From a virus, in IMG/VR virus record IMGVR_UViG_3300049783_000946, positions 1 through 39,496 of that record: 39,496 nt of DNA; one strand, given 5' to 3'. Below the pieces are notes generated by a model. It worked only from the letters and a program-made list of their open reading frames with translations. It was not told where the DNA came from and did not search any database. The position numbers were made by a program, and so were the translations under genes. Positions 12,091 to 37,049 of this stretch are shown one piece after another (the first letter of the stretch is position 1; each line of letters starts with the position of its first letter).

Positions 12091-12091
12091 A

Positions 12092-16000: not shown

Positions 16001-16115
16001 ATTCAACGTCTATATTAAATCCTGGACATGGCACCATATCCATACAAGTACCTATTTCATGCTCTGACAATCTTTCTAAAAACATTTTAAACCCTTCTAT
16101 TTCTGCTTCACTCAT
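15993..16115 (-). CDS. 40-residue acidic micro-gene
   Basis: Protein of 40 residues starting MSEAEIEGFKMFLERLSEHE and ending FNIDVEYE, with a helical head and two cysteines (TCMDMVPCPG). It overlaps the end of the HNH gene by 8 bases and the start of the next micro-gene by 8 bases. The overlaps and a clean ATG/TAA frame support coding, but it is short and has no recognised relatives. Confidence 0.5.
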   Translation of the reverse strand: MSEAEIEGFKMFLERLSEHEIGTCMDMVPCPGFNIDVEYE

Positions 16116-16545
16116 CTTCTTTTTTTTCTAAAAACGTAATATCAAGTTCCCAATTATTTTGACTTCTCTTTTCCCATACATCAAAACACTCATTCACATA
16201 TTTCTCTGCACCTTTTTTAGTCATCTCATTAACTGTCATAAGCTTATTTAGAACTACGTCAAATCTCCCTTGTATTTGAGCAAGACCCACATGCTTTGTA
16301 GAGTGACAATCTGGACACAGAGCAATAAGCCCAAGAAGTGTTTGCTTGTGTGTTTCGTCATTATAGTCCCAAATCTCATGGCACTCCACTGGATGTTTTG
16401 GACCTTTCCCAGCACAAACCTCACACTTGTACCCAGCCTTCTTGTAACATTCCTTTCTGAGAACATCCCACTCTGCCGCTGTAACATTAGAGCGGACATT
16501 GCTATACCAAGCTGTTTGTGGTACTAATTCAATCGTTAACTTCAT
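16108..16545 (-). CDS. HNH endonuclease
   Basis: A 145-residue protein with a zinc-supported HNH core: CEVC (C41, C44), then VECHEIWDY with H56, LLGLIALCPDCH with C77, C80 and H81, and a further His at H85. These match the betabetaalpha-metal HNH layout; such proteins nick or cut DNA and are often free-standing mobile nucleases in phages. The start overlaps the last 17 bases of the polymerase gene, so it is in the same operon. It may be a homing nuclease or a resident replication/recombination nuclease. The N-terminal 25 residues are not family-specific. Confidence 0.8.
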   Translation of the reverse strand: MKLTIELVPQTAWYSNVRSNVTAAEWDVLRKECYKKAGYKCEVCAGKGPKHPVECHEIWDYNDETHKQTLLGLIALCPDCHSTKHVGLAQIQGRFDVVLNKLMTVNEMTKKGAEKYVNECFDVWEKRSQNNWELDITFLEKKEDE

Positions 16546-20970: not shown

Positions 20971-22983
20971 TTATTTTTTTCTGTTTCTCAAAAACTTTTC
21001 AATATCATTCATAAGAATATTACTTTCATCTCCAAGTTTACCAGAACCATCAACAAGTGGGTTTGCTTTTTTAACAGTCTCCTGAATGACTCCTCTACCT
21101 ATTCCAGTAACACTGCCATTCATACTATCAATCAATCTTTTAGACTCAAGATTCATTGACTTGTTTCTTTTTATCAAAGCATTGTCTTCAACGTTAACCT
21201 CTTTCTTTGGCGCTTCATCAGGGCCCAATAATTCATTAAGCATGTTTCCAACGTATTTGTCAGAAATCCTTTGTGCCTTTCTGAAATTGTTTTCAGGAAG
21301 TGGTTCTGCTTCTGCTCCAGCTTCTGCTCCAGCATCAGCCTCTCCGCCCATGTCAAGCTCATCAGCTCCGCCCATATCCAATCCACCAAGGTCTCCGCCA
21401 AGACCTCCGCCTCCGCCTCCACCAAGGTCACCACCTTCTTCGTCACCACCTTCTTGTTGGGCTTTCATCATTTCTTCAGCGCCTTCAATTTCAAATTTCT
21501 CATCAAGGTCTTTGAAAAGACCAATTTTCTTGTACATCTCAACAGCTGAGTCAATTTCAGCAAATATTTTCTTCTCAACCTTTTTCTGCTTAAGAATAAG
21601 TTTGATTTCAGATTTAGAGAATCCAAGAACATTTTCCATTGCCCAAACATAAGATACTGGAGATGTTGCCTCTGCAGAGAACATTTCCTTGAATACCTCA
21701 AGACGAGCTTTCATAGTTTCTAATTTTAGAAGCTCTTGCTGCGTAGATGGATTTGTAAGTGTAAGTGTAAAGTTATCTATTTCATCTGTAAATCCATTGA
21801 AATAAAGATGAATGTTTGCAACTCTCTTAAGCTCAGCAAGCACTGCTTGTTGAATTGTGTTAATTGTTCTTGCAAACCTAAGGTCTTGTTGACTAAGTGT
21901 CGAACCTCCAGGAAGACTTTCACCATAGTTCAAGTAATTCTTAGGAACTTGAAGTGAGGCGAATAACTTATTTTGTAAGTATTCAATATCCTGAATATCT
22001 CCAAGATTAGATGCTCCTGGAAGAGTTTCAATTCTTGATGACCTATCAGCTCTCATCGGAATGAAGTAATCTTCTGTTACGTTCATTGGATTGTACTTCA
22101 TGTTCATATTACCAGTCTTCTGGTCAACAATAGGCTGTTTCTTAAGTTGAATCTGGAACTGTTGTACGAATTGCGCAACATCTGCATGCTCTAAATTACC
22201 AACATCAATATAAAATACCCTTCTCTCTGGGGCTCTTGTAATACGATATACAAGCATAGAATCCTCAGCAAGCTGAAGTTGTTTCCAAAGCTTTCTCGCT
22301 GGGTCCAAAATAGAACGTCCGTAAGGAAGTTTTCTTGTATCTTCAAGAAGTCTAAAGTGAGCAACTTGCCAATCCTCAAAATAATCTCCAGTAGTTTCCC
22401 ATCTAAATCTTACGTTATCAGTTCTTCCCTCATACCCTTCTTCTCTGTGAATTTCCTCAGAGGGAAGCGCCATTACATCATAAATACCTTCTTCCTTGTC
22501 AACATGAAGGTGAAGAAAGAAATCTCCATACTTAAGAAGGTCTCTAATCCACAATTTAAGTGCGAAATCTATATCAAGTCTGTTGAAGAATAAGTCCTCA
22601 AGTATTGTTTTAACTCTTGCATTTTCAGAGAATATGTCAAGAATCTTACCTTTTTCTCCTCTGGTAATACACTCATCTCTCATGATATTAAGAGCAGCTG
22701 CAATCTCAGGAGATTGGTCCATAGCTCTAAAATCCTGATAAGCATTAATCCTATCGGTATCATAATAAATCGTTCTTGAATAAAGGTCGTTTGCAATTTT
22801 GTTCACCTGCCAATCAAGGAACTGTTGCTGAACGTGCTCAACGTTATTTTCTTGATTGATAAGTCCATTACCAACATTTTGAACTACACCAGGATTTTCC
22901 ACCCTCGGAGTTCTACGTTTATTCTTGTTTATTGCGTCATTTACGCCACCAAAAACGCTATTGAAATTATTATCGTCTGCCAT
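20971..22983 (-). CDS. Portal protein (T4 gp20-like)
   Basis: A 670-residue portal. Diagnostic text includes AMDQSPEIAAALNIMRDEC, LLKYGDFFLHLHVD, PYGRSILDPARKLWKQLQL, EDSMLVYRITRAPERRVFYI, LPGASNLGDIQDIEYLQNKL and FARTINTIQQAVL, which is the gp20 core. It forms the dodecameric ring at one capsid vertex through which the terminase packages DNA and to which the tail attaches. Compared with T4 gp20 (524 residues) it has an extended C-terminus containing a Gly/Asp/Glu-rich low-complexity linker (about residues 510-565) and a charged tail. It follows the terminase gene by about 50 bases, with a late-type element in the gap. The unit ends in the H1-like gene. Confidence 0.95.
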   Translation of the reverse strand: MADDNNFNSVFGGVNDAINKNKRRTPRVENPGVVQNVGNGLINQENNVEHVQQQFLDWQVNKIANDLYSRTIYYDTDRINAYQDFRAMDQSPEIAAALNIMRDECITRGEKGKILDIFSENARVKTILEDLFFNRLDIDFALKLWIRDLLKYGDFFLHLHVDKEEGIYDVMALPSEEIHREEGYEGRTDNVRFRWETTGDYFEDWQVAHFRLLEDTRKLPYGRSILDPARKLWKQLQLAEDSMLVYRITRAPERRVFYIDVGNLEHADVAQFVQQFQIQLKKQPIVDQKTGNMNMKYNPMNVTEDYFIPMRADRSSRIETLPGASNLGDIQDIEYLQNKLFASLQVPKNYLNYGESLPGGSTLSQQDLRFARTINTIQQAVLAELKRVANIHLYFNGFTDEIDNFTLTLTNPSTQQELLKLETMKARLEVFKEMFSAEATSPVSYVWAMENVLGFSKSEIKLILKQKKVEKKIFAEIDSAVEMYKKIGLFKDLDEKFEIEGAEEMMKAQQEGGDEEGGDLGGGGGGGLGGDLGGLDMGGADELDMGGEADAGAEAGAEAEPLPENNFRKAQRISDKYVGNMLNELLGPDEAPKKEVNVEDNALIKRNKSMNLESKRLIDSMNGSVTGIGRGVIQETVKKANPLVDGSGKLGDESNILMNDIEKFLRNRKK

Positions 22984-23033: not shown

Positions 23034-24800
23034 TTATCCCAACAACCAACTTAAATCATCATCATCGCTTGCTCCTGGAGTTCCAGCACCACCTACGTCT
23101 GTATTCCCATTTCCATTAAATATAAAGAGACCGCCTCCTCCTTTTGGGTTCTCTGTCTTTTTTGTATTTTCAAGTACTTTTCCAACAGAAGGGTTTGCAT
23201 TAAGCATCATCGCATTAAGCATGCTTTTTGTCATCTCAGTAGATGAAATTACGTTTTCGAATTCTGTATCCCTAATGTAAAGAGCAATTCCAAGCGCCAT
23301 GATTAAATCATCATGAGAACCTTTTTCGTGCTCTGGTTTGTCTCCATTCATAACAAATGTGTCAAACTCCATCATAAGCCTTTTAGAGTGAAGAGTTATT
23401 GAGTTCTCCCTCATATGCTCGATAATAGCCTTTACAAGAAGTACTCTGTTTTTTCTTGATGTTTGGAAACCTGGAATCTCTGTTCCTTCATTTACTTTGT
23501 AAGAATAGTGCCTTACGTGAATGTCTTTTATATTTTTAGAAAAGTATAACCTGTTTCTTGGATACTTGAATTTATCTCTAACGTCAAAACAAACACCAAG
23601 ACCAAACGAGTTCGCCTCAATTACAACATATGCTTTATTATACATCCTTGCTACTGCGTCAATTACGTGTGGGAATAAATCTGGACCAACCTTTTCTCTG
23701 TACTCTGCCACTTGTTCAAGTGTTTCAGCATCAAGAATCTGCATTGTAGAGTAATCCTGACCATCACCCCTGGCGACATCGGCAGCGAGTATGTAGCTCG
23801 CTCCCTCTTCTGGTTGTTTAAAGATATGCATATTTGTTTCCTCCAAAGTAAACTTAGCAAACTCTGATGGGTTTTCTTTTTGCATGAAATCAAACTTAAT
23901 GTAACCAAGTCTTTTGAAATCAGCCTCAACCTTTGCTCTATACTTAGAAACCAACTCAGCATCAATTGCAAGCCTTTTCGAACCTTCAAACGAAAGGTCA
24001 AGCTCTTGTGCAATCTGAACTGAATCCCAGTTAAGCCTTTTACATTGCGCTTCATACCATGGGCTCCAAGGTTTCTCGTTTCCATTAGCATCCTTTTTGT
24101 ATTCAAGACCTTCTGCGCTATTTTCATTTTCAGTCCAGTGAACTGTTTTTCCAACAAAATCTTCTGCCTCATTAGCAGATTTATCTCCACTAATAGTTTC
24201 TCTCCAGGTCTTGTAATATAATCCAGAAGTACCGTTTGGTGTAGAAATCATAATACACTTTCCACCAGTAGCAGAAAGCGCCATACCAGCTCCCATCCAA
24301 ATTGCCTCGTCATCTTTAATAAAGGCGGTCTCATCAAGAACCAGCATTGTAAGTGAATCTCCACGACCAGCGTTAGGGCTCGATGCTTTTGCTTCAGCGT
24401 AAGAGTTGTTTGAAAACGCAATCTTCTTTGTGTTATCAGTTTCGATTGCATCTGGCTTAAGCCACAATGGAGTATGTTCAATAAATTGTTTTACAGTTTC
24501 AAGAAAACGAACCGCACCAGCGCCATCATTGGCAATGATAAGAATCTTTTCATCATATCTGAACAAAAGTCTCCACGCAACATATCCAGCTGTAACAACC
24601 GAAAGACCTGTTTGTCTTGACTTTAAAATTATGTTATTTTGGTATTCGTGAAAGTTTCTTAGACAATCGTTTTGATATTCAAAACATTCCATCTTAGTCA
24701 CCATTCTCTCTTTTGCGTTAAACACATACCCATATGTGTTCATGTAATATACAGGGTCAGCTGCACACTTTGCAAATTCCAACATTTGATTATTCACCAT
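23034..24800 (-). CDS. Terminase large subunit (T4 gp17-like)
   Basis: A 588-residue packaging motor. In the ATPase domain, the P-loop region is ILKSRQTGLSVV (58-69), the Walker B is TMLVLDETAF with D157/E158, and a coupling segment ISTPNGTSGLYYKTW follows. In the RNase-H-fold nuclease, D341 lies in AADVARGDGQD, E395 in VVIEANSFG, and H496-D497-D498 in GSHDDLIMALGIA. It pumps DNA through the portal and cuts the concatemer. The P-loop lacks the usual GK[S/T]: the lysine is before the loop (K60), as in some T4-like marine phages. The C-terminus ends in a Gly/Asn/Asp-rich tail. The length is close to T4 gp17 (610). No small subunit is visible next to it. Confidence 0.95.
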   Translation of the reverse strand: MVNNQMLEFAKCAADPVYYMNTYGYVFNAKERMVTKMECFEYQNDCLRNFHEYQNNIILKSRQTGLSVVTAGYVAWRLLFRYDEKILIIANDGAGAVRFLETVKQFIEHTPLWLKPDAIETDNTKKIAFSNNSYAEAKASSPNAGRGDSLTMLVLDETAFIKDDEAIWMGAGMALSATGGKCIMISTPNGTSGLYYKTWRETISGDKSANEAEDFVGKTVHWTENENSAEGLEYKKDANGNEKPWSPWYEAQCKRLNWDSVQIAQELDLSFEGSKRLAIDAELVSKYRAKVEADFKRLGYIKFDFMQKENPSEFAKFTLEETNMHIFKQPEEGASYILAADVARGDGQDYSTMQILDAETLEQVAEYREKVGPDLFPHVIDAVARMYNKAYVVIEANSFGLGVCFDVRDKFKYPRNRLYFSKNIKDIHVRHYSYKVNEGTEIPGFQTSRKNRVLLVKAIIEHMRENSITLHSKRLMMEFDTFVMNGDKPEHEKGSHDDLIMALGIALYIRDTEFENVISSTEMTKSMLNAMMLNANPSVGKVLENTKKTENPKGGGGLFIFNGNGNTDVGGAGTPGASDDDDLSWLLG

Positions 24801-24813: not shown

Positions 24814-24823
24814 TAATAAATAG
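24814..24823 (-). promoter_or_regulatory. Putative late element CTATTTATTA
   Basis: Reads CTATTTATTA on the minus strand, 13 bases before the terminase ATG. The flanking CCC-CTATTTATTAGAAATTAA is nearly the same as in front of the gp26-like gene at 12985. Confidence 0.5.
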
Positions 24824-24848: not shown

Positions 24849-25157
24849 TTAAATTCCGATGTACACGTTTGTGCTAAGTTCGCTGTCTGATATGACAGAA
24901 ATATTGTCTGCTATAAACACAACCGATGTGATGTTGTTTTTGGCATACAATTGATAGTCTCCAGTAGTGCTTGCTGACCAAGAAGCTGTAAACACCCCTC
25001 TTGAAGAGTCTGATAATGTCACGCCTATGGTAGTCCCAGTATAAGAAACTCCATCTCTATACATTATTGTATCGAATGTTGCGCCAGTAACAGGATTGTT
25101 ATCTACGTCAAGAGAAATTATTTGTTCATATACGGTTTGTCCAGTAACAACGTTCAT
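24849..25157 (-). CDS. Small Ig-like beta-sandwich protein
   Basis: A 102-residue all-beta protein with the pattern of a single Ig-like fold: LDVDNNPVTGATFDTIMYRDG, then GVFTASWSASTTGDYQLYAKN, then NISVISD. Single-domain beta proteins of this kind serve as capsid or neck decoration or as fibre adaptors in phages. It lies between the patatin-like gene and the terminase gene, with a CTATTTATAT element 13 bases before its ATG. Its short DNA-free style resembles the two small beta proteins at 37.6-38.4 kb. Function inferred from fold only. Confidence 0.55.
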   Translation of the reverse strand: MNVVTGQTVYEQIISLDVDNNPVTGATFDTIMYRDGVSYTGTTIGVTLSDSSRGVFTASWSASTTGDYQLYAKNNITSVVFIADNISVISDSELSTNVYIGI

Positions 25158-25169: not shown

Positions 25170-25179
25170 ATATAAATAG
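25170..25179 (-). promoter_or_regulatory. Putative late element CTATTTATAT
   Basis: Reads CTATTTATAT on the minus strand, about 12 bases before the ATG of the Ig-like gene. Confidence 0.4.
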
Positions 25180-25189: not shown

Positions 25190-26155
25190 TTATTCTTCCA
25201 CCTCTTTGAACACATTTGACCTTGTAATCTTATATTTTTTTACATTTCCAGACTTTGCATTAATATAACCCTCTTGCCACCATCTAAGCATCTCCTCTTT
25301 TTTGAACACCAGCGAGTTATCAGTTAAGCTATAGGGAGTGTAGTAAATATTTATATCTATCTCTCTTCCGTGTGACTTAAGTTTCTCAAGGTCTACGTTG
25401 TCTTTTGCGATTTTTCTCATTAATATTTCTATCAATCTGAAAAAATACTGAAGCAAGTTGTTTATTTTTTTTCTTTTTACAACCCCAAACCCTTCTGGAG
25501 ACAAAACGATTACGTCTATCTCTGTGGCCCCGTTTTCAATTGCAACCTGAATTGGAATCTGTTCGTATATTGCTCCGTCAGCATATTGATTGTCGTCTTT
25601 TTCAAGAATGCTTGTAAATATAGGCGCATTGCACGATGCCCAAAGCCAATCTACAAAGTCTTCATACTTACTTTCGTTTGAAGATTTATACTCCGCTCTT
25701 TTGTCTGTCAAGTTTGAAACTACAGCAATCACTTCTTTGTCTGACTTGTAAAGCTTTTCGAAATGCTTCTCCTTGAAGTGTAGTTTGATTAAATCTCTAA
25801 GGCTATCAGTTTCTCCAAGTGTTTTTTTTGTTTTTAAAACCCTCTTGATTGCGTTCCATTTTCTGATGCTACCATCTTCATTAAATGGATTTAGTGAAAA
25901 TATGTCTTCCGATGTTATGCTGGTGTATCCTTCTTTTAAAATACTTAATTCTCGAATAGATGACAGCGGGGCGAGCAGACTCCCAGTAGAAGTTCCTACA
26001 TATAAGTCGTAGTCTTTTTCTTTATCTTCAAGCAGATATTGGATTACTCCACCAGCCCATGCTCCTTTTGACCCTCCTCCTGAAATAACGAGAGCCTTCT
26101 TTCCCTTAAAGGGTTTCTTTTTAAGCTTGCCTGGTATGTTGTTATCTTCTGCCAT
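25190..26155 (-). CDS. Patatin-like phospholipase
   Basis: A 321-residue protein when started at the ATG at 26155 (MAEDNNIPG...); an in-frame ATG at 26170 lies in a hairpin loop. The catalytic layout is complete: oxyanion glycines GGGSKG (26-31), nucleophile S56 in G-T-S-T-G, and D193 in Y-A-D-G-A. Family knowledge: patatins cleave acyl chains from membrane lipids with a Ser-Asp dyad. No signal peptide or membrane helix is seen, so it is cytosolic or virion-carried. It lies in the structural block between a two-helix membrane protein and an Ig-like gene, and a terminator-like hairpin directly precedes it. Possible roles are membrane attack at lysis or at entry, or host membrane remodelling. 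The enzyme class is sure; the role is open. Confidence 0.88.
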   Translation of the reverse strand: MAEDNNIPGKLKKKPFKGKKALVISGGGSKGAWAGGVIQYLLEDKEKDYDLYVGTSTGSLLAPLSSIRELSILKEGYTSITSEDIFSLNPFNEDGSIRKWNAIKRVLKTKKTLGETDSLRDLIKLHFKEKHFEKLYKSDKEVIAVVSNLTDKRAEYKSSNESKYEDFVDWLWASCNAPIFTSILEKDDNQYADGAIYEQIPIQVAIENGATEIDVIVLSPEGFGVVKRKKINNLLQYFFRLIEILMRKIAKDNVDLEKLKSHGREIDINIYYTPYSLTDNSLVFKKEEMLRWWQEGYINAKSGNVKKYKITRSNVFKEVEE

Positions 26156-26188
26156 AAAAAAAGGGGTCATAATAATATAGCCCCTTTT
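26156..26188 (-). terminator. Terminator-like hairpin abutting the patatin start
   Basis: AAAAGGGG (26159-26166) pairs with CCCCTTTT (26181-26188) around a 14-base loop, followed on the minus strand by a T-run (26156-26162). It follows the stop of the membrane-protein gene by 26 bases and runs straight into the patatin ATG. Confidence 0.65.
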
Positions 26189-26214
26189 ACTGATAAAATC
26201 AAACTTTGATTCTA

Positions 26215-26754
26215 TTATTTTTTAATGTTCCCATGTAAATTTCTATCTTCAAGTTCTTTTAAAGCTAATTTTCTCTCCCAGGAGCCTATTGCATGACGTT
26301 TTTGTCTAAACGCAATATTAAGAACTTTACTTAACTGATGACCTCTCTTAAACATGCGTGTTTTATTATATTCATACCAACCTATTGTTGCAGAAATAGT
26401 CGTTTGTTTCTCTCCAAATGGAGTATCTTCCTCTGTGCCCACACTATCTTCCAGCCATTCTCCCCATACATTAGCTAATTCATCATATGGCTCCGCAAAT
26501 CCTTTGTAAAGAATATCCCCTAAAAACGAGTAAGTACCATCAATTGCTCTCCACCAGATTCTGAAAAACAATTTCCAATCCTTTTCTTTAAATGGCATAT
26601 AAAACGAATAGAGAGTGTTGTAAATAATTCCGAATGCAATAACTGGAGTAAATACTATAGCAGACCCTATTGTCGTAATAACCCCATATCTAAATTCCTT
26701 AGATATAATTAACCCAAGCAACACAAAGGCTGATATAATAATAATTCCTATCAT
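26215..26754 (-). CDS. Membrane protein with two N-terminal helices, unknown function
   Basis: A 179-residue protein. Two membrane helices lie at about residues 2-18 (GIIIISAFVLLGLII) and 24-52 (VITTIGSAIVFTPVIAFGII), followed by a soluble, Trp/Tyr- and Lys-rich part with WKLFFRIWWRAIDGTYSFLGD and GEWLEDSVGTEEDTPFGEK. No enzyme motif. Its ATG overlaps the stop of the 88-residue gene (TAATG), and its transcript seems to end at the following hairpin. It could be an inner-capsid or injected membrane protein, or a partner of the patatin-like enzyme. Neither is shown by the sequence. Confidence 0.6.
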   Translation of the reverse strand: MIGIIIISAFVLLGLIISKEFRYGVITTIGSAIVFTPVIAFGIIYNTLYSFYMPFKEKDWKLFFRIWWRAIDGTYSFLGDILYKGFAEPYDELANVWGEWLEDSVGTEEDTPFGEKQTTISATIGWYEYNKTRMFKRGHQLSKVLNIAFRQKRHAIGSWERKLALKELEDRNLHGNIKK

Positions 26755-27020
26755 TAGTTTCTATTTTTGTTTTTAATTTTCTTAATCTTAGACACATCCA
26801 GGTCTTCTACAAACTCTGATACTGTATCAATATCGAATGTGTCATTTATGAAAAATGTTCTTACATCCCCCGAAGCGCTAATTGCATACACTGTACTTGT
26901 CTTGCTGTGAAATCTAATAGAATCTACCAAAAGCCCTATGTCATCATCGTCATAAATTGTTTTACCCACAAGAAGCTCGTTAAGGAGCATTTCAAATATA
27001 TTTGTTCTTTTCTTTGCCAT
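26754..27020 (-). CDS. 88-residue protein, unknown function
   Basis: Short protein starting MAKKRTNIFEMLLNELLVGK and ending KIKKIKNKNRN. It has a basic head, then an acidic IYDDDDIGLLVDSI segment, beta-type text, and a very basic tail. Both ends form TAATG overlaps with the neighbours, a strong sign of a real, coupled gene. No family recognised. Confidence 0.6.
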   Translation of the reverse strand: MAKKRTNIFEMLLNELLVGKTIYDDDDIGLLVDSIRFHSKTSTVYAISASGDVRTFFINDTFDIDTVSEFVEDLDVSKIKKIKNKNRN

Positions 27021-27658
27021 TAGTAATTTCCGTTTTTAAGTATGTCTAACATTTTATCTTGGTCTACTTGAGTCCAATAAGCTTTACCACTATAACCCGT
27101 ACCACCAGAAAATGTAGAAGTGTTACCTAACCAGTCAAATAAGCCATCTTCACCACTTTTTTCAAATGATTCAACACCATAAATAATATACTCATTACTT
27201 AATGTATTAGTAGATTTACCAAGGTCGATTGAATCTGGCATTGGAATGGTGAATGAAATGTAAGCCTCAGCTGCATCCCATCTTAATTGCCTTGATTTAC
27301 GTGCTTTAATAACTAAATCACTCCACGCCTCTTGCTGCTCTTCATCTGTTAATACAGTATCTCTATCAGCTGGGCCGACAGCAAAGTGCGTTGCAGCGAC
27401 AACCTTCTCTTCTGTTGTTAGTGCGCTAAAGTTATTTATAGCAGTCCAAGTCATAACTTGAGTTCTACAAAATGAATAATCATAATGTCCAACACCTATT
27501 TCCATCCAACTTTTATTAGACGTAATCTCGTCATAATAATCACCAACAGTACCTTTGGGTCCATCAAATGTGGCACCTGTAAATATATAATAAGGTTTAC
27601 CTGTATTATTTAACTTCGTTGGTTTTACTTTTATTTCTCCTATTCTAATTAAACTCAT
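27020..27658 (-). CDS. Fibre-region protein, unknown function
   Basis: A 212-residue soluble protein. The beginning is beta-type (PYYIFTGATFDGPKG) and the middle is helical (FSALTTEEKVVAATHFAVGP, then DEEQQEAWSDLVIKARKSRQ). The end (GLFDWLGNTSTFSGGTGYSG) is Gly/Ser-rich. It stands at the end of the fibre cluster and overlaps the next gene by TAATG, so it may be a fibre tip, a chaperone or an adaptor. No family recognised. An ATATTTATTA sequence lies only 2 bases before the ATG. Confidence 0.55.
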   Translation of the reverse strand: MSLIRIGEIKVKPTKLNNTGKPYYIFTGATFDGPKGTVGDYYDEITSNKSWMEIGVGHYDYSFCRTQVMTWTAINNFSALTTEEKVVAATHFAVGPADRDTVLTDEEQQEAWSDLVIKARKSRQLRWDAAEAYISFTIPMPDSIDLGKSTNTLSNEYIIYGVESFEKSGEDGLFDWLGNTSTFSGGTGYSGKAYWTQVDQDKMLDILKNGNY

Positions 27659-27660
27659 AA

Positions 27661-27670
27661 TAATAAATAT
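27661..27670 (-). promoter_or_regulatory. Late-type element ATATTTATTA very close to an ATG
   Basis: Reads ATATTTATTA on the minus strand but ends 2 bases before the ATG at 27658, too close for a normal promoter of that gene. Kept as a weaker member of the set. Confidence 0.25.
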
Positions 27671-27673
27671 GTT

Positions 27674-28990
27674 TTAATAAATTAATGTGTCAGTACCACT
27701 GCTGCCGCCTTCCTGTATTTTAATGTTATCCACAATCATTGGTGGATTTGCCCCTACTGAACCATCATTTTTCCATGTAAACACAAGCCTCTTTGTGCTA
27801 CCAGAATAAGACGTTAAGTCAATTGTTTCAGTATTCCATACCGTACCTGGCGTTGTTCCATATGCGAGGTTAAATTTACCTAAGTTCGCCACAGCTCCAA
27901 GCCTACCGTTAGTCCCAACCCCAGCTTGAGTTGTTATAACCTCGGTGCCAGCCACTGGCGTTGTACCAGTATCTGTAATCACAACAGCCCCATAGTCATA
28001 CTGTGTTGCTCCAGCCGCATTCTCACCTTGACATTTCCAATCAAATGTTAATGTAAGCCCAGAAGCAGAAGGAAGGACGAAATCTTTATAAAAATGAGAA
28101 GCCTCAGCATTATTGATGTCGTATGTAGCCGAAGTTCCTCCATCATTAGAAACATAAGCTGATGACGTTCCACTGAAACTCTCTGCTTGACCTACAACCC
28201 AAATATTAGCAGAATCATTAGCAACAGTCCATGAATTTGATGTGAATCCAGATGATTCAAAAGTCTCATCTATTATTGTAGTACCTGTTGTGACCACACC
28301 TGGAATTATTAATGGCTCATCAACCTTGCTTGCAACAATCTGACAATGCTTAGGAATATAAGACCTTCCAGAGGCTCCACCAGCTCCACCACCCTCTCTG
28401 CTCACCGCTGAAATACCACCCAATAAATAAGCATTTGTAGGCATTTCAAGCATACGCAGTGACGAAATATTTGTTGTTGAACCATTGTCTGATGCAAAGG
28501 CTTCATTATACCCGTAAGGTGGTATAGTGAAGTTTGCTGCAATTCCAGATAGCCAACTCATCCACTTACTTGGACCACCTCTCATAGTTGATGTCTGACT
28601 TATAAAAGCCCTCATCGTTGTGCTGCCAGTATATTTTAAATCATCTGTAGTCGTGTTCTCAGTTGCCAACTCCCATTCAGAGCTGCTATCTGGGTCCAGT
28701 ACCCAAGATGCACCAGCTGGTGCGCCATTAAATGCAAACCAATCACCAAGCGGTTGTGTGTCGAAATCAACAAGAGATGTTGAATTAGTTAAGCTAATCT
28801 TCCCATATGATGAGTGAATACACTTCAACCAAGTAGTACCACCATCATTATTGATATAGGTGAAACCATTGCTATACGTTGTTGATGACATCATCATCGC
28901 CACAGAACCTTTTGTGGCACTGTGAGATGGAATATCGTCTACTTGATAATACATTATGTCTCCTACTGATATTTGTGAAATTACTCCCAT
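27674..28990 (-). CDS. Receptor-binding fibre protein with a MAM/jelly-roll domain
   Basis: A 438-residue protein. The N-terminus has the short fibre module with HSATKGSVAMMMSS and INNDGGTTWLKC (about residues 22-55), also found in the next gene upstream. The C-terminal ~200 residues form a beta-sandwich of the MAM/choice-of-anchor-J kind: TIIDETFESSGFTSNSWTV (about 240-258), LTLTFDWKCQGENAAG, and the closing PPMIVDNIKIQEGG. Such domains bind glycans or cell-surface polymers. The gene starts directly after the stop of the 198-residue fibre gene with no space. It is probably one of several alternative or combined receptor-binding tips. Confidence 0.65.
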   Translation of the reverse strand: MGVISQISVGDIMYYQVDDIPSHSATKGSVAMMMSSTTYSNGFTYINNDGGTTWLKCIHSSYGKISLTNSTSLVDFDTQPLGDWFAFNGAPAGASWVLDPDSSSEWELATENTTTDDLKYTGSTTMRAFISQTSTMRGGPSKWMSWLSGIAANFTIPPYGYNEAFASDNGSTTNISSLRMLEMPTNAYLLGGISAVSREGGGAGGASGRSYIPKHCQIVASKVDEPLIIPGVVTTGTTIIDETFESSGFTSNSWTVANDSANIWVVGQAESFSGTSSAYVSNDGGTSATYDINNAEASHFYKDFVLPSASGLTLTFDWKCQGENAAGATQYDYGAVVITDTGTTPVAGTEVITTQAGVGTNGRLGAVANLGKFNLAYGTTPGTVWNTETIDLTSYSGSTKRLVFTWKNDGSVGANPPMIVDNIKIQEGGSSGTDTLIY

Positions 28991-29587
28991 TTATCCTACT
29001 TTTCTTGCCAATAATTGTGCATGTCTAATATCTAAATTTGCTGTTGAGTCTAAATTCCTAACATCAAAACCAATCGTGTCTCCACCTGTTAGGGATACTA
29101 TTGTTTGAAACCCTATATGCTGCCTTGTTTGTGTGGCATCTATATAAGCTCCTCCATATGTTCCAGCTACTGGGTCAGCTCCATTAACAGATAGGCCAAC
29201 TTCATAATTAGCAGCTCCAACACTATAACTAATAGTAGCATTACCTCTAACCTCATAATCACCATCATATCCAGCTATTAAAACCAACGTATTAGTACTG
29301 GCAGATAAACCCTTTGCAAGGCCTTCAGTGAAAGTGTTCCCTACCGATGCCCATACGTTTTGTGTAGATATTGTAGTATCAGTGGTATTGACTTGGTAAT
29401 ATGCTTCACCATAAGCTACCGTGCTTAACAGCTCCCACGTTGTAGTTCCATTAAGGTTTTTCCATACATTACCCGTGTCTTTATCGCTATATATAGACCC
29501 TAATGGTGAAGTGTGGTCTGGTGCTCCATTTCCACTCTCAGTGAGAATGTCCCCCAAAGATTTCGATATTAAATTAGTCGTAGCCAT
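28991..29587 (-). CDS. Small tail fibre protein with a C-terminal jelly-roll head
   Basis: A 198-residue protein. The N-terminal module GAPDHTSPLGSIYSDKDTG followed by VWKNLNGTTTWELLS (about 20-55) is a common phage fibre adaptor. The C-terminal ~140 residues are a C1q/TNF-like or similar beta head (VNTTDTTISTQNVWASVG, SLTGGDTIGFDVRNLD, RHAQLLARKVG at the end). It would form a trimeric knob that contacts the host surface. It starts 1 base after the stop of the 619-residue fibre gene and is followed directly by another fibre gene. Confidence 0.65.
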   Translation of the reverse strand: MATTNLISKSLGDILTESGNGAPDHTSPLGSIYSDKDTGNVWKNLNGTTTWELLSTVAYGEAYYQVNTTDTTISTQNVWASVGNTFTEGLAKGLSASTNTLVLIAGYDGDYEVRGNATISYSVGAANYEVGLSVNGADPVAGTYGGAYIDATQTRQHIGFQTIVSLTGGDTIGFDVRNLDSTANLDIRHAQLLARKVG

Positions 29588-29588
29588 A

Positions 29589-31448
29589 TTATATAATTAT
29601 TTCATAAGCAGATACCCAATCAATCGTGGTAGCCGCAATTCCTGTTACATCAATATCAATATTACTTCCATTTACTGTGAAGTTAATTGAATTTGCATTT
29701 AATCCAGATGATGTTTTATCTACATCTGCGTTTTCTTCTCTTATAACAACAGTTCCAGATACGCTTGTAACTGTTAAAGTTCTTTTCCAAACACCATATT
29801 CTGCAGCACCACTTTCGTATGCCTTAACAAATACTTCAACAATGTTTGTTGCATTGTCTACAAGTGTGTCAATTACATCAATCTCTCCTGGTGTTGCAGT
29901 TGTTGTTTGAGTTGCACCTGTTATTCTTGACGTTCCTCCGCCTCCGCCTCCAGACGCATTTATCGTAAGCTCTGTTGCTCCTGATGTAATTGTTACATTG
30001 GTACCAGCTACTAATGTTCTAAACTCAAGGTCAACTCCAGTCTTTTGCTTAAACACTGGGTTTCCACCTCCAAGGTTAGAACCTGTGTTTGCTTCACCAG
30101 AACCAGCTGGTCCAGAAATTGTCACAACATTATCTCCTGAGAATATCTGAATATTTGTTCCTGCAGAAAGAGTTTTAAACTCAAGGTCAACTCCAGTCTT
30201 TTGCTTAAATAACCCTGTTTCTCCACCTACATTTGATGCAGTGTTATCTTGTCCAGTACCAGCAATTGATTCAAAGTTAATTGTGTCTCCAGATGTTGTA
30301 ATTGCAATTGTAGCTCCAGAAGAAGTAAGCGACTTAAATTGGTTAACTGTACCAACCTTGGCGCTAAATACACCTTCTCCTCCACCTATATTAGCAGATG
30401 TTGTAATTGACACTCCAGACCAAGATACCTTTTTAGTTGTTGCGGCATCTGTATCCCATATCATAAGGTAGTCATCTGATGCTGGCGTTCCTATATCAGT
30501 AAAGTCATTAACAGATTTCTCAACAGCAATACTATCGGCTCCACCAATCCAAAAATTTTCAGGTGATAAATTAGGCAAATCATTTGACCTACCAGCACCA
30601 TACACAGCAATTACACCACTAACGGCATCAACCTTAAGGACTATACCGATAATTTGTATATCGGCTGTGTCACCAGTTGGTCTAACGTTTGTTAATTGAC
30701 CAGGTGTTTCAGAAACATAAAGTGCGTTATTTAATCCCCAGGCAGATGTATCAAAACTATCATGTGTACCATTTGTGATTAGAGTACCTTGTACAGTTGA
30801 TGAACCAGATGACGTACAAATACCGATAGCTGGCATGGTGCCACCACCAGATGTCGCATCTGCAAGTGCAACTGAAACAACAGAATTTGCATCATTCCAA
30901 TTTTTAGCGAAAATAACCTCACCAACATTAATCGTACCAGCAGAATCTTTCAAAAAGTAAGTTTCAATATTAAGACCAGTAAGGTCTGTTGTAATTGCTG
31001 ATAAACCATTATTTCTATTATAAGTTATTATAGTATCATTAAATGTAGTACCAGTAATATATGAATCAGTAGTAATAATTCCTGTTAGATTAGAACCATC
31101 ACCAAAATATGTTGTTGCGGAAATACTACCACTAACCGTTAACCCAGTGAAGTTATTAATTATTGTACTATAAGTACCACCAGTACTATTTGTAGCTGTA
31201 AGTGTATTATTGTTAAAAGTCATACCTGTTGTATAGGTATTATTTCCACCAGCTATACCAGTAAGATTAGAACCATCACCATAAAATGTAGTAGCACTAA
31301 TACTCGTTGCTGAAAGTGTTAAAATTTGAGCATTAAAACTTACCCCATCGGTTTGGTCGATAGTAAATTGATTTGTCCCATCATATGTAAAAGCACTGAT
31401 TGATGTGTCTACCACTGGTATTCCGTTTATCTTTCTTACTTGTGTCAT
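29589..31448 (-). CDS. Large tail fibre protein with repeated beta modules
   Basis: A 619-residue protein. The N-terminal part has two copies of the FYGDGSNLTGI module (about residues 52-63 and 111-122), then an Ig/decoration-like region (about 160-300, including AIGICTSSGSSTVQGT). Three ~52-residue repeats follow at about 347-504 (core VGGETGLFKQKTGVDLEFK). The C-terminal head (about 515-619) ends WVSAYEIII. The architecture is that of a trimeric fibre with a receptor-binding tip. Glycine codons change along the gene: mostly GGT in the first half, GGA/GGC in the second, so it looks mosaic. GTATTTATAA lies just 3 bases before the ATG. Confidence 0.75.
   Translation of the reverse strand: MTQVRKINGIPVVDTSISAFTYDGTNQFTIDQTDGVSFNAQILTLSATSISATTFYGDGSNLTGIAGGNNTYTTGMTFNNNTLTATNSTGGTYSTIINNFTGLTVSGSISATTYFGDGSNLTGIITTDSYITGTTFNDTIITYNRNNGLSAITTDLTGLNIETYFLKDSAGTINVGEVIFAKNWNDANSVVSVALADATSGGGTMPAIGICTSSGSSTVQGTLITNGTHDSFDTSAWGLNNALYVSETPGQLTNVRPTGDTADIQIIGIVLKVDAVSGVIAVYGAGRSNDLPNLSPENFWIGGADSIAVEKSVNDFTDIGTPASDDYLMIWDTDAATTKKVSWSGVSITTSANIGGGEGVFSAKVGTVNQFKSLTSSGATIAITTSGDTINFESIAGTGQDNTASNVGGETGLFKQKTGVDLEFKTLSAGTNIQIFSGDNVVTISGPAGSGEANTGSNLGGGNPVFKQKTGVDLEFRTLVAGTNVTITSGATELTINASGGGGGGTSRITGATQTTTATPGEIDVIDTLVDNATNIVEVFVKAYESGAAEYGVWKRTLTVTSVSGTVVIREENADVDKTSSGLNANSINFTVNGSNIDIDVTGIAATTIDWVSAYEIII
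29935..30405 (-). repeat. Three ~52-codon repeats in the 619-residue fibre gene
   Basis: Units start near NIGGGEGVFSAKVG, NVGGETGLFKQKTG and NLGGGNPVFKQKTG. The last two share more than 30 identical bases (30014-30047 and 30179-30212 region, AAACTCAAGGTCAACTCCAG on the plus strand). This is a recent internal duplication and a likely site for fibre recombination. Confidence 0.75.
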
Positions 31449-31451
31449 ATC

Positions 31452-31461
31452 TTATAAATAC
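31452..31461 (-). promoter_or_regulatory. Late-type element GTATTTATAA close to an ATG
   Basis: Reads GTATTTATAA on the minus strand, 3 bases before the ATG of the 619-residue fibre gene. The short spacing argues against a simple promoter. Confidence 0.25.
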
Positions 31462-31476
31462 TTATAATATTCTTTA

Positions 31477-34014
31477 TTAAAAATCCTCAACCCAAGAAAT
31501 ATCCACCTCAGTTGATGTTGAGTTATCCCCTTGTGTTATAAACCCTATTGTCCTGCCTGGTCTTATAGCAATACCTCTATTTGTTAATTCTGTAAATACA
31601 TTACTAACCTGGGTAACCCCGAATGTTGCAAGCACTTTACCACTACCAGTTGTATATGTACCGCCAACACCAACTTGTATTATGGAACTATTTGCGTCTT
31701 TATATGTATATGTTGGTGATACTGAATATACTGGGTCTTCTATTACTTGAATCCTGACAATAGTATTATTAGCACCATCATTTGATATTGATAAATCTCT
31801 TAAATATGCCACAACCCTATTTGTTGTTGTTGCACCAGATGGGAATACCGACACACTTCTTAATGCCAATAACTCACCATCATTACCACCAGTATTGCTA
31901 CCATTAGCCGATTGTAATGGACCTGTTATCACATTTTTACCTTCAACAAATGCTGCCATAGATGATGACTTCATAGTCAATACATCTGTTGAAGTTCCGT
32001 TATTAACCTCAGCCCTAATAGGGAATGTTGGATTATATGATGATGGTATTACTTCATTATTCGCATATTTTATTTGGTGAACTGGAACATATTTTCCAGT
32101 ATAATCGCTCTCGATAAAGAAATTGACCGCACCAAACCCTAACCATTGGTATTGTATTTGAAATACATTACCCTTTGTTGGGTCAAGTAACATACCAGAT
32201 GGGTTTGAACCATCTGAACCACCATCCATTGTATCCACATTCCATTCTGATTGTGATATAAATGTTGTACCACTATTTATTCTATGGTGAATACCATATG
32301 TGTCACCACTATACCCAAAGAAATAACCATCGTTATCATCACCAATACCAATTACTTGACGTGAATCACTCGTAGTTGCACCAGATGTAAATAATGCTGT
32401 AAATCTTGCCACAACACCTTGACCCGCTCTATACTTAGCTACATTAATCGTATTTAATATACCAATAGATGATGATGAAGTAGACGTTGCTAATGACACC
32501 ATGCTATCAACTTGTGTTATTGTTGCCCCATTTTCGGTTGTTGTATTTACTAATTGTGTGTTAATATTATAAGGATAAGTAACTTGAATTACTGGTGTCA
32601 TCTCAGCAACTTGTACCTCACCAAAAGCTGTGGTAGGACTTTGAATTGCTACCTTTAAATTACTTACCGTATCAGTATTAACGTTATTAAATCCGCCAGC
32701 ATCATTCTTACCAACAATAACATTTCTACCTAAGTTAGCCACAACACCAGCTGGTATAAAATCATTCATACCTAATATTTGACCACTAATAGATTTTATT
32801 CTTGGGTGGAAGTCTAAAAAGAAACTTGTTTGACCAATACTACCATTTGTATATTCATATTCTATATAAGGCCCAAATATAGGTGACGAAAAATAACTAA
32901 CCGTCCCTACTTCATCACCAGCATAAGGTCTTGTAAATGTTCTTAATAATATTGTTTTTGCCGAATCATTATACCATCTTCCAGTTAACGCACCAGCAAC
33001 GTTAGAAAACATATGTGTTTCTATTTGTGAATAACCTTCTGTTGATACGAGTGTTGAGGTATATGTCCCACCGCTAACTAATGCTATATCAGTTCTAAAT
33101 GCAACACCATCAATTTTTTGGTTAGTAAATGAACCATCTGGTTCTTGACCAACGATAACGCTTCTACCTAAGTTGGCAACCATTCCACCAGAAACAAAAT
33201 CATTCAAACCAAGAATCTGACCACTAATAGATTTTGTGGTAAATTTGGTATCAAAATAAAATTGAGTTTGACCTGTACTTGTACATTCAAATTGGTATCT
33301 AACATAAGGTGTAAAAGCTGGTGCTGATAATATTTTAAAACCATCCCCACTTGTATAAGGAGATACCAGCGTTCTTAGCAAGTTAGTACCACCCGCATCT
33401 TCATAGAATTTAATAGTTGTCGTACCGTTAGCACCTACGGATAATAAATCAGTTTGCACTTGTGTATAACCAACAAGTGATAATATACCACTATCATATG
33501 TTTGACCAGATGTTAATACTGAATTTGTTGAAAAGCCTAAACCATCTGCTTGTACATTATTGTAAGAACCACCTGGTGTCTCACCGATTGAAACTGCTCT
33601 AACTATATTAGCATCAGAATCAGCACTAATTGGTTGATTAAGTGGTGCTGAAAGAGTTACTGGAGCATAAGAATACATAGTTCTAAGTCTAAAGTGACTT
33701 CTACCACCAGTACCTATGAATTTAACCCTAACGTATCGAGTACCCTTCCACGCTCCGTGAACTTCATTTATACCACTTGCAACAGTGAAATCAACCGTTG
33801 GATATTCTGACCAATTAGTACCATCTTGAGAAAACTCAAAAGTAAGTGTACCAACTTCATCAGTTTGTAAATTTACTGCAACATATGAATAGTCGTTTTG
33901 TTCTCCAACCCCTAAGTAGGTGTTTGAAGTCCAGTTTCCTCCAGATATTGCTGTGTCGGAATTTACACCTATTGCAGATGTGTACGTTGGATTTATTGGT
34001 GGTGTATAGCTCAT
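31477..34014 (-). CDS. Large fibre protein with three beta repeats and a giant-virus-type structural domain
   Basis: An 845-residue protein. Three homologous beta domains lie at about residues 25-140, 160-275 and 305-415; the last two end in the nearly identical KSISGQILGLNDF and KSISGQILGMNDF and then VVANLGRxVIVG. About residues 480-700 form a globular domain with GIGDDNDGYFFGYSG, FQIQYQWLGFGAVNFFIES and MAAFVEGKN, followed by a C-terminal beta tail. I recall this globular pattern (FFGY...FQIQ.QWLG.G...AFVEG) from structural proteins of jumbo phages and nucleocytoplasmic giant viruses. Glycine is mostly GGT, unlike the flanking fibre genes, which suggests transfer. Probably a receptor-binding or long-fibre protein. 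Confidence 0.7.
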   Translation of the reverse strand: MSYTPPINPTYTSAIGVNSDTAISGGNWTSNTYLGVGEQNDYSYVAVNLQTDEVGTLTFEFSQDGTNWSEYPTVDFTVASGINEVHGAWKGTRYVRVKFIGTGGRSHFRLRTMYSYAPVTLSAPLNQPISADSDANIVRAVSIGETPGGSYNNVQADGLGFSTNSVLTSGQTYDSGILSLVGYTQVQTDLLSVGANGTTTIKFYEDAGGTNLLRTLVSPYTSGDGFKILSAPAFTPYVRYQFECTSTGQTQFYFDTKFTTKSISGQILGLNDFVSGGMVANLGRSVIVGQEPDGSFTNQKIDGVAFRTDIALVSGGTYTSTLVSTEGYSQIETHMFSNVAGALTGRWYNDSAKTILLRTFTRPYAGDEVGTVSYFSSPIFGPYIEYEYTNGSIGQTSFFLDFHPRIKSISGQILGMNDFIPAGVVANLGRNVIVGKNDAGGFNNVNTDTVSNLKVAIQSPTTAFGEVQVAEMTPVIQVTYPYNINTQLVNTTTENGATITQVDSMVSLATSTSSSSIGILNTINVAKYRAGQGVVARFTALFTSGATTSDSRQVIGIGDDNDGYFFGYSGDTYGIHHRINSGTTFISQSEWNVDTMDGGSDGSNPSGMLLDPTKGNVFQIQYQWLGFGAVNFFIESDYTGKYVPVHQIKYANNEVIPSSYNPTFPIRAEVNNGTSTDVLTMKSSSMAAFVEGKNVITGPLQSANGSNTGGNDGELLALRSVSVFPSGATTTNRVVAYLRDLSISNDGANNTIVRIQVIEDPVYSVSPTYTYKDANSSIIQVGVGGTYTTGSGKVLATFGVTQVSNVFTELTNRGIAIRPGRTIGFITQGDNSTSTEVDISWVEDF

Positions 34015-34036
34015 TTTAATCTATTTTTATTTTATT

Positions 34037-35095
34037 TTATAATATTATCCAATTACTATCGTCAGATTGGAAAGTTCTTGACAAATATTGCTCTGTCATT
34101 GTGATTCCTGTAGAACCATTTATTGTTTGAGATGATGTTGTTGCCACTGTAATGACTCCTCCGCCACTATTTACAACATTATAAATCTTGCCAATAACAC
34201 CAATAGCTGTCGGAAGAGTTTGCGTTGTAGCTCCAGTGCTTATGACATTAACAGTAAAATCTGAAACTAAAATATTGCCACTTGCAGATACATTTCTCAA
34301 CCCTGGTTGTGTTCCTGGGCCAGAAGATGAAGATATTTCAATATACAACTCATCTGGATTAAACTCAAGGACAGTTGCACTTGAAGGTGTTCCAATATAT
34401 CTTACAATGTTACCATCTCCAGTTGGCTGTGTTGATGTGTATGAACCTGTTGTACCAAGCCAATATGTAACTCCAGTTAATAAACCAGTAGTTGTATATG
34501 GTCCACTTTTAATTACAGCACCACTTGCATCTGCTAATATTGTTGCATTTGCAAGTCTAAGCTCTGTTGAGGATGTTACCTCAGAAGTGTTTGACGCTTT
34601 CCAATAATTACCATCTGTATTAAGATAAAGAACATCTCCACTTGATACGTTCTCTCCAACTATGACAGTCTCAGTTCCAACTGTTATATTTGTAATATTG
34701 CTTCCATCGCCATAAATGGTTCCACCAGATATTGTAACAGCACTTAAAGAGCTTATTAAAACATTATCTGCCAAATTAATTGTTGGCTCATTTGCTGTAC
34801 CTCCAGTTGTTATGTTTGTTCCTGGCTGAACTCTTGTGATGTCATTTCCATCAGCTGAAGTAATAAATATGTCATAAAGATTTGTTGAACCTGAATATAT
34901 CGTAGACGCACTTATTGTTCCAAATGAATTATTTCCACTTGAGTTGAATTGGCCGTCTACAGTTAAGTCTTGCGAAACAGTAAGTCCGCTAACCGTAAAC
35001 GTAACAGCAGATGATGCAATATCTTCACGAGCTGCATCAGTTATACCTCCAGCGGTATTTGTTGTTATTCTTATTATTTTATATTCTTCAGCCAT
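34037..35095 (-). CDS. Tail fibre protein
   Basis: A 352-residue protein. It has a short N-terminal adaptor (MAEEYKIIRITTNTAGGIT), then ISASTIYSGSTNLYDIF (about 59-75), RVQPGTNITTGGTANEPTIN (about 87-106) and IYGDGSNITNI (about 126-136). A decoration-like region follows (VGENVSSGDVLYLNTDG near 143-159), and a beta end closes with FQSDDSNWIIL. The QPGTNITTGG and YSGSTN modules also occur in the 591-residue gene just upstream, so the two were built from the same parts. Its ATG overlaps the stop of that gene (TAATG). Confidence 0.7.
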   Translation of the reverse strand: MAEEYKIIRITTNTAGGITDAAREDIASSAVTFTVSGLTVSQDLTVDGQFNSSGNNSFGTISASTIYSGSTNLYDIFITSADGNDITRVQPGTNITTGGTANEPTINLADNVLISSLSAVTISGGTIYGDGSNITNITVGTETVIVGENVSSGDVLYLNTDGNYWKASNTSEVTSSTELRLANATILADASGAVIKSGPYTTTGLLTGVTYWLGTTGSYTSTQPTGDGNIVRYIGTPSSATVLEFNPDELYIEISSSSGPGTQPGLRNVSASGNILVSDFTVNVISTGATTQTLPTAIGVIGKIYNVVNSGGGVITVATTSSQTINGSTGITMTEQYLSRTFQSDDSNWIIL

Positions 35096-36870
35096 TATCT
35101 AAGTGCATTATATGTAAAGACAAAATCTGTCATGTCTAAATCTGAATTTAAAGTATCTCCAGCATCTCCTGGGTCTCTTGTTACTGTTAAGTGTATTTTC
35201 ATTCCAGCAGAAAGAACCGTTGTTGGCGTGTAGCTTGGGCTGTAAATAAATACATTCGCAGTTGACTCTGGAGTATCTGAGATAGAAAATGACTCTGCCG
35301 CTGTTACAAGAGAGCCAGTGCTCGTGCTATTTCCAGTGTACATATTATAACTTGTCTTCGCAGAAAGGGTTGTTGATGTTGTAGAGCTTCTCCATATATA
35401 AGAGAATTTTCCACCATTCTTATAGTCATCTGGAACTGTGAATCCAATACCCGCAACATCAGGAGTTCCAACGCCAGCAAATCTAACTGTTGATATTGTT
35501 ATTGGAGTTAAAGTAACTCTTGTCGCACTATCAAGAGCAAATTCTTCTGCATTAAAAGATATAGCCCTCTGTATCGAGAAGTCGGTTGTTATGTCAACTC
35601 CATCATTTCTTGAAATGATAAGAGTGGTGTCAGCGCTGAGTGTTGCTCCTGTTATGTATGTGTCTTCTCCAGTTATTAGGTCCCTTATAATGGTCTCCAC
35701 ATTTGTTGAACCTGAATACAAGGTTGTTGCAGACAGTGTTGTTGCACTTAAAGAATTTAAAGTTGGAGACGATGTGGCTTCCCAAAGATTTGTCGCTCCA
35801 TTCCATTGAATTATATCTAAATTTGACTCTGTTCCTCCTGATATTCCAATATCTTGTAAATCACTTAAAAACGGATACCTATGTGGTCTAACGAAAATAG
35901 AACCGTTTGCGATATGTGCTAAAATCACAATACCCATCTCTATTTTATAATTTGGAGAAACAGGTTGTACATTTGTAAGGCCACCTTCTATAGTTGTAGA
36001 AACCCAAAGAATATCTCCATCGCTCCACGTTTCACCATATGGCGTACCAGTTGTGTTCAAACCTCTTACTAACCCAAACTCTGTTACATAACCATCATTG
36101 CCATTTAAAATATCTTGAGTAGAAAGACCAAGGGTAAACTTAGGTAAAACACTTCCATCAGCAATCATATACTCAGCAAGTATTCTACCAGAAGCCCCTA
36201 ATGTTCCAGAAGCTCTAACTGCTCTACCATTTTGTATAGTTGCTCCACTATTATTCCTTACATAATAATGAGTTTCTTGACCAACTTGCAATTCAACTTC
36301 GCCACTATGCATTCCGATGCTAACTGTACCGTTATTTTCATCCCATTGCATTTTCCCTTCAACAGTAGCTCCAGGAGTAGCTCCTGTATTAAATTGAATA
36401 TAATCTTCAATATAAACAGTTGTTGCTGTAGTTGCTTGTAATGATGTATCACCAGATGCTGTTAATCCGTTGAAAAATGGAGAGTCTACAACGCTAACTA
36501 TTGGATATTGTGCTGTTCCTCCAGTTATAATGTTTGAACCTGGTTGCACAAAAGTGTGTGTATCGGAGCTTATTAAGTTTCTAATGATTGTTTCAACATC
36601 AGTAGAGCCAGAGAATAGTGTATCAGCACTAAAATTACCAATTACTCTCGTGTCACCAGTAATTGTGCCTCCTGTAAGTCCAAAAAATGAATTGGAACCA
36701 TATTCAAATACGTCTGCACCATCATATCCCCACAAACTATGGTCTGCAAGATTTGAGGCAAGTTCACCAGACTTAATGTAATTAAGCTCATTACCAGTGG
36801 TTCCAGTAGGAATCTTGCCAGGTACAGAGGTTCTTTTCGTTATTAAACGAGCGTTTCTTGTCTCTGCCAT
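35095..36870 (-). CDS. Tail fibre protein, first gene of the fibre cluster
   Basis: A 591-residue protein. The N-terminus (RLITKRTSVPGKIPTGTTGN, then YIKSGELASNLADHSLWGYD, residues 8-50) resembles the baseplate-binding domain of phage tropism determinants. Next come FSADTLFSGSTDVETII (about 80-96), FVQPGSNIITGGTAQYP, a decoration-like region (YVRNNSGATIQNGRAVRASG near 210-230), LSATTLYSGSTNVETII (about 375-391), and a C-terminal beta head ending DMTDFVFTYNALR. It is likely the baseplate-proximal fibre. It faces away from the tail tube gene across a 179-base divergent region. Confidence 0.7.
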   Translation of the reverse strand: MAETRNARLITKRTSVPGKIPTGTTGNELNYIKSGELASNLADHSLWGYDGADVFEYGSNSFFGLTGGTITGDTRVIGNFSADTLFSGSTDVETIIRNLISSDTHTFVQPGSNIITGGTAQYPIVSVVDSPFFNGLTASGDTSLQATTATTVYIEDYIQFNTGATPGATVEGKMQWDENNGTVSIGMHSGEVELQVGQETHYYVRNNSGATIQNGRAVRASGTLGASGRILAEYMIADGSVLPKFTLGLSTQDILNGNDGYVTEFGLVRGLNTTGTPYGETWSDGDILWVSTTIEGGLTNVQPVSPNYKIEMGIVILAHIANGSIFVRPHRYPFLSDLQDIGISGGTESNLDIIQWNGATNLWEATSSPTLNSLSATTLSATTLYSGSTNVETIIRDLITGEDTYITGATLSADTTLIISRNDGVDITTDFSIQRAISFNAEEFALDSATRVTLTPITISTVRFAGVGTPDVAGIGFTVPDDYKNGGKFSYIWRSSTTSTTLSAKTSYNMYTGNSTSTGSLVTAAESFSISDTPESTANVFIYSPSYTPTTVLSAGMKIHLTVTRDPGDAGDTLNSDLDMTDFVFTYNALR

Positions 36871-37015: not shown

Positions 37016-37049
37016 ATACAAACGAAAATAACAATTTAAAAATAAGATT

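Follow-up and report, generated by a model that had tools for sequence, protein, structure and literature searches.

The 39,496-base viral record examined in this study (itself a fragment, and hereafter called the window) carries a patatin-like phospholipase gene that, judged from its sequence, appears intact and complete and is predicted to encode an acyl hydrolase. Patatins are already known from phages, and the enzyme type is a familiar one that has been reported in few of them; what is new is the long co-inheritance of the patatin with the packaging genes of a T4-like clade, the occurrence of tandem copies, and the failure of a test for partnership with the adjoining membrane gene. The best explanation, to which we assign about an even chance, is that the gene encodes a late cytosolic patatin-type phospholipase or lysophospholipase of a T4-like, probably Bacteroidota, phage, which would weaken or remodel the inner membrane around virion release.

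The patatin gene and its product

The features of the patatin gene and its 5' end are as follows:

25190-26170, minus strand: full open reading frame of the patatin-like phospholipase, 326 aa
25190..26155, minus strand: patatin gene from its likely start at 26155, 321 aa (Pfam, AlphaFold2 model, fold match)
26156..26170, minus strand: stretch from the alternative upstream ATG of this frame (sequence)
26156..26188, minus strand: intrinsic-terminator-like hairpin, AAAAGGGG...CCCC followed by seven T, stopping right at the patatin ATG at 26155
26063..26080, minus strand: GGGSKG oxyanion-hole motif (sequence), its first two glycines invariant in alignments
25988..25990, minus strand: codon of catalytic Ser56 (GTSTG), invariant in all aligned rows
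25577..25579, minus strand: codon of catalytic Asp193 (DGA), invariant in all aligned rows

The protein covers the whole 191-position Pfam model PF01734 (E 1.6e-27), scoring 97.4 bits where the gathering cut-off is 27.7 bits, and it has the glycine-rich, G-x-S-x-G and D-G-G/A motifs and the fold of the patatin family. The initial annotation had called the catalytic parts intact, and GGGSKG, GTSTG and DGA are indeed all present, with no variation at Ser56, Gly58, Asp193 or Gly194 in an alignment of 18 phage patatins whose identity falls to about 30%. The upstream ATG at 26170 falls within the terminator-like hairpin and for that reason is probably unused. The patatins of relatives begin at the inner ATG, and the arrangement of hairpin and ATG is common to five of them; the likely start is thus placed at 26155, a choice with which the residue number given earlier for the catalytic serine (S56) is consistent. 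No signal peptide or membrane segment was found in the protein (highest 19-aa hydropathy 1.17), so it is predicted to be intracellular.

An AlphaFold2 model built with the 18 relatives (pLDDT 87, pTM 0.86) matches CapV (Z 23.9), PlpD (23.5), CapE (23.2) and patatin-17 (22.6) about equally, and the modelled fold can be read as that of a patatin and nothing finer. A single-sequence phmmer search of the PDB gave no match; a profile search did. With CapV and CapE nearest in fold, and with a match to PADLOC phospholipase effectors at E 2e-15, the protein might be imagined to serve immunity, either as a CBASS-like lipase directed against rival phages or as a decoy that binds defence nucleotides. Such a role is nevertheless quite improbable, given that the score of 42 bits is far under the CBASS lipase cut-off of 200, that PlpD and plant patatin are equally close, and that no cyclase gene was seen among the window proteins scanned.

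Genomic setting and probable host

Nearly all long genes of the window lie on its minus strand, and the surroundings of the patatin include the following:

11017-12985: two baseplate-hub proteins
16529-20635, minus strand: bacterial-type DNA polymerase III alpha
20971..22983, minus strand: T4-like portal protein, gp20 (Pfam Portal_T4, E 1.2e-78)
23034..24800, minus strand: T4-like terminase large subunit, TerL (PHROG phrog_2, E 4e-41; Pfam Terminase_6N/6C)
24849..25157, minus strand: Ig102, a conserved protein of 102 aa encoded between the patatin and the terminase, its position beside TerL conserved
26754..36870, minus strand: variable module upstream of the patatin (g88, g212, g438, g198, g619, an 845-aa protein, g352, g591)

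A T4-type terminase and a gp20 portal, both recognized with Pfam, mark the region as a T4-like structural block. The initial annotation was right in placing a terminase gene downstream of the patatin, beyond the gene for the 102-aa protein, as the Terminase_6N/6C match confirms, and in counting the patatin among late structural genes. It had also described the 102-aa protein as Ig-like and virion-type. The first of these terms may stand in a weak sense, as PDB matches to filamin-like structures (E 0.03-0.5) suggest a weakly Ig/filamin-like protein; no Pfam or PHROG family scored above cut-off, however. The content of the variable module differs among relatives, its 845-aa protein matches a virion structural protein family (phrog_1645), and the module probably encodes tail fibres or adhesins.

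The closest terminases among isolates belong to Flavobacterium phages (about 30% identity), and the host is likely to be a member of the Bacteroidota. The Flavobacterium immuto phages have the terminase-portal order in common with the window, and no recognizable Ig102, patatin or membrane gene was found adjoining their terminase. Shine-Dalgarno motifs are at background level among the window genes (2 of 25 starts).

Several other features of the window were observed. The polymerase (1368 aa, with exonuclease and PHP domains) takes the place of the T4-type family B polymerase, so that a bacterial-type polymerase III alpha shares a contig with a T4-type portal and terminase. There are three homing or HNH endonuclease genes (38597-39385, 16108-16545 and 13417-13896, all minus strand). 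A reading frame at 37013-37267 (minus strand) is the antisense shadow of a conserved tail-tube-like gene of 162 aa at 37050-37538 (plus strand).

Co-inheritance with the packaging genes

A patatin scan of viral contigs yielded 10 loci and a profile scan 23 (some of them repeated), while a terminase scan, made independently of the patatin, yielded 80. When the window's own clade is defined by a terminase identity of about 73% or more, the patatin is present in all 13 of the clade's loci that reach upstream of Ig102 (L040, whose contig stops there, is outside this count), and no testable locus departs from the order patatin-Ig102-TerL-portal. The same order is found in four more distant loci (L026, L027, L030 and L053), in which patatin and TerL are each about 45-57% identical to those of the window. 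Across 16 loci, patatin and TerL distances agree closely (Mantel r 0.94, a value reached in 0 of 2000 permutations), L048 and L053 departing somewhat from this agreement. Estimates of dN/dS were 0.02-0.08 for the patatin and 0.04-0.14 for TerL, the patatin values coming from 11 of 45 pairs, since most pairs were saturated at silent sites. On these sequence comparisons the patatin is under strong purifying selection, which together with the conserved gene order argues that it is not a chance reading frame; the conserved linkage to packaging genes likewise marks it as a true phage gene and no stray.

The gene is not universal among related phages. A sister clade with terminases about 61% identical has the order Ig102-TerL-portal without the patatin, and no patatin was found elsewhere on its contigs, which are fragments; the patatin is therefore dispensable for that kind of phage. 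To explain its distribution on the terminase tree, the gene must have been gained or lost at least four or five times. A second patatin, 33-42% identical to the first, lies just upstream in L003, L007, L008, L009 and L011, and a truncated one in L005. Additional observations concern individual loci. Homing-endonuclease-like genes abut the 5' end of the patatin in L003, L007 and L022. In L058, a relative without the patatin, the patatin position holds a 218-aa protein (2961-3617) that is weakly like YiiX/C92 cysteine peptidases and weakly matches the cysteine peptidase 3kw0 (E 0.016). The terminase frames of L058, L059, L061 and L062 are enlarged to roughly 970-1000 aa, probably by inteins; an enlarged portal frame is found in L047. 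In L005, a fibre N-terminus is fused in frame to the C-terminal half of the second patatin (3006-3860), which may be a deletion remnant or an assembly join.

This setting bears on whether the patatin could be a lipase of the virion or tail fibre whose target at entry is the outer or the inner membrane. The patatin adjoins the variable fibre module, the patatin of megaphage LR756500 comes after a g212-family gene, and the L005 fusion joins fibre and patatin sequences. Nevertheless, the fused copy is without the catalytic serine and may have arisen by deletion or assembly, and the slot next to the fibre module also houses unrelated genes. The protein itself contains no virion, fibre, carbohydrate-binding or tail domain that we could find, and the lack of any virion domain or export signal disfavours action at entry, which we regard as improbable.

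Cellular relatives and origin

A scan of genomes returned more than 550 stretches encoding relatives of the patatin, 80 of which were kept. With one exception these are from Bacteroidota, at 41-47% identity, and the Bacteroidota homologues are full-length and chromosomal. The exception (L117, 82% identity) is a phage contig binned with a Deltaproteobacteria metagenome-assembled genome. The other 79 stretches (L118-L196) represent a conserved chromosomal patatin of Bacteroidota; in 48 of them it has a nearby gene that, going by its sequence, encodes an M1-like aminopeptidase, and 11 contain tandem patatins. In an unrooted tree, phage and bacterial patatins form two separate groups, with no nesting of phage sequences within the bacterial ones.

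It is possible that the patatin is a host-derived metabolic gene with no part in lysis, its product freeing fatty acids or trimming damaged phospholipids in the infected cell, as the Bacteroidota homologues may do in theirs. Full-length relatives at 41-47% identity in hundreds of Bacteroidota genome contigs, their chromosomal settings (for example near the M1-like aminopeptidase, and some in tandem) and the auxiliary metabolic gene label given to other phage patatins are all compatible with this idea. However, the gene is placed in the late structural block and not amid metabolic genes, and the phage patatins do not branch from within the bacterial group; we hold a purely metabolic role to be rather unlikely.

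Promoter-like motifs and timing

The coding strand of the whole window has 21 copies of the motif TATTTATW and the opposite strand 4, and 11 sites lie 8-60 bases before gene starts, where 0.7 would be expected; the motif is strongly enriched about 20-30 bases before the starts. This motif is probably the late promoter of this phage group. Two sites, both recognized by motif enrichment, lie downstream of the patatin:

25171..25178, minus strand: late-promoter-like motif TATTTATA before Ig102
24815..24822, minus strand: late-promoter-like motif TATTTATT before the terminase

The motifs before Ig102 and TerL recur in relatives, and the same motif stands before the patatin of L026 and before the tandem copy of L003. 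A search of the sequence before the window's own patatin, including the hairpin loop, revealed no convincing late motif. Since the gene sits among late structural genes and both Ig102 and TerL are preceded by late-promoter-like motifs, we infer late expression of the patatin.

The adjoining membrane gene

Upstream of the patatin, the following gene is found:

26215..26754, minus strand: membrane protein of 179 aa with one or two N-terminal helices (hydropathy, family alignment)

Its reading frame and that of the patatin lie exactly where the initial annotation had put them, and the two hydrophobic segments detected by hydropathy agree with its description as a two-helix protein. The AlphaFold2 model of this protein is poor (pLDDT 51), and a tblastn comparison of the membrane proteins with named phages gave no match. 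The special link to the patatin that had been suggested for this gene did not hold up among relatives. The membrane gene lies upstream of the patatin in 5 of 11 readable loci (the window, L002, L004, L016 and L021); the other six have in this position either another patatin or a gene for a homing endonuclease, a tail tube or a glycosyltransferase-like protein. Four loci without the patatin (L041, L042, L046 and L052) have a homologue of the membrane gene immediately upstream of Ig102; since L041 and L042 seem nearly the same, these amount to about three independent cases. The membrane gene also has its own strong late-type motif in L002, L004, L016 and L021.

The terminator-like hairpin (fold z -3.1) lies between the membrane gene and the patatin in L004, L016 and L021, as it does in the window, and after the second patatin in L005 and L117. 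In the alignment, 96% of cells are paired, compared to 43-72% for slid partners, and one pair is altered on both sides; covariation showed no excess over column shuffles. The 5/11 linkage, the patatin-free loci and the intervening hairpin speak against the membrane gene as a dedicated partner of the patatin.

The same results weigh on the proposal of a holin-patatin lysis cassette like the one put forward for Wolbachia phage WO, in which the 179-aa protein would give the phospholipase access to the membrane or help it to break through. That precedent (PMC9203015) and the adjoining genes in the five loci recommend the idea; however, no membrane gene lies beside the patatin in six of 11 testable relatives, the membrane gene occurs without the patatin in four loci, and a terminator-like hairpin separates the two. 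Together with the membrane gene's own late-type motif, these findings leave such a cassette with very little probability.

Probable function

The breach of the inner membrane by phages is generally ascribed to holins and not to lipases. If the patatin is a late cytosolic phospholipase, as we prefer to read it, it would be made late in infection, its Ser56-Asp193 dyad would attack host phospholipids on the cytoplasmic side of the inner membrane and strip off their acyl chains, and the membrane would thereby be weakened or remodelled around virion release. The fold, the catalytic residues, the co-inheritance with the terminase, the strong selection and the lack of a dedicated membrane partner are computed; timing, substrate and purpose are what we infer, with assistance in lysis and remodelling of lipids roughly as likely as each other as the purpose. 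In searches of related contigs, all records being fragments, a 388-kb relative gave a match to Amidase_2 and a further contig one to Peptidase_M15_4. The other large related contigs contained nothing above cut-off for five families, and searches of the large contigs for Lysozyme, M15_3 and GH19 (the last without a positive control) gave no match. As peptidoglycan-hydrolase candidates are present in two related contigs, the patatin would add to an endolysin and not replace it.

A more specific proposal, which we offer only tentatively and consider unlikely to be right, is that the place flanked by the fibre module and Ig102-terminase serves as a dedicated slot for enzymes of membrane attack or release, in which the patatin would be a late phospholipase with which a clade of Bacteroidota T4-like phages disrupts the inner membrane at lysis. 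The occupants of such a slot would be a patatin, tandem patatins or, as in L058, a C92/NlpC-like hydrolase.

Comparison with known systems

The initial annotation held that such lipases are rarely discussed as phage late proteins. This is a fair statement, and a literature search with the phrase "phage-encoded phospholipase" found no paper; however, the WO cassette (PMC9203015) and Mar_Mega_1 (PMC9723777) precede the present case. Patatins have also been listed in Caudovirales of lake viromes (PMC9469726).

The chromosomal patatins of Bacteroidota are full-length homologues with the same motifs, at 41-47% identity, but are cellular, without linkage to phage genes, and form a separate group in the tree. 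PlpD of Pseudomonas aeruginosa is a type V secreted protein that includes a transporter domain. The window patatin resembles it in fold (PDB 5fqu/5fya, Z 23.5 over 242-245 residues) but has no transporter domain and is 18-19% identical. The CBASS effectors CapV and CapE (PDB 8zr9, 9iom) likewise share the fold (Z 23-24) and the catalytic motifs, at 20% identity and, on this fragment contig, with no cyclase seen among the window proteins scanned. Membership in the CapV family was rejected at 42.4 bits, compared to an equivalog cut-off of 200 in NCBIfam NF041079.

The patatin of megaphage Mar_Mega_1 was reported as the first in a phage and read as an auxiliary metabolic or virulence gene, and a patatin of megaphage LR745206 was reported as well (PMC9723777). 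As in the present case, these are patatins of large tailed phages, and in LR756500 a g212-family gene lies directly before the patatin; however, the patatins of LR756504 and LR756500, which were found in this analysis, are about 30% identical to that of the window and showed no terminase linkage in the stretches read. Contrary to the suggestion of the megaphage report, a patatin in a phage is not necessarily cargo acquired recently for virulence or metabolism.

For Wolbachia phage WO, a putative lytic cassette based on a patatin has been proposed (PMC9203015), following an earlier suggestion (PMC3173496). Both there and here the patatin lies beside structural genes, with a small membrane protein adjoining it in some of the relatives studied here. 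WO is a temperate phage of the Symbioviridae with holin-like and ankyrin genes, whose host has no detected peptidoglycan, whereas the window belongs to a T4-like, probably Bacteroidota, phage in which the patatin is linked to the terminase and the membrane gene is an inconsistent partner and not the dedicated small holin-like neighbour of a WO-type cassette. As the patatin is inherited with packaging genes, the lipase-aided release proposed for WO becomes testable in free-living, culturable Bacteroidota.
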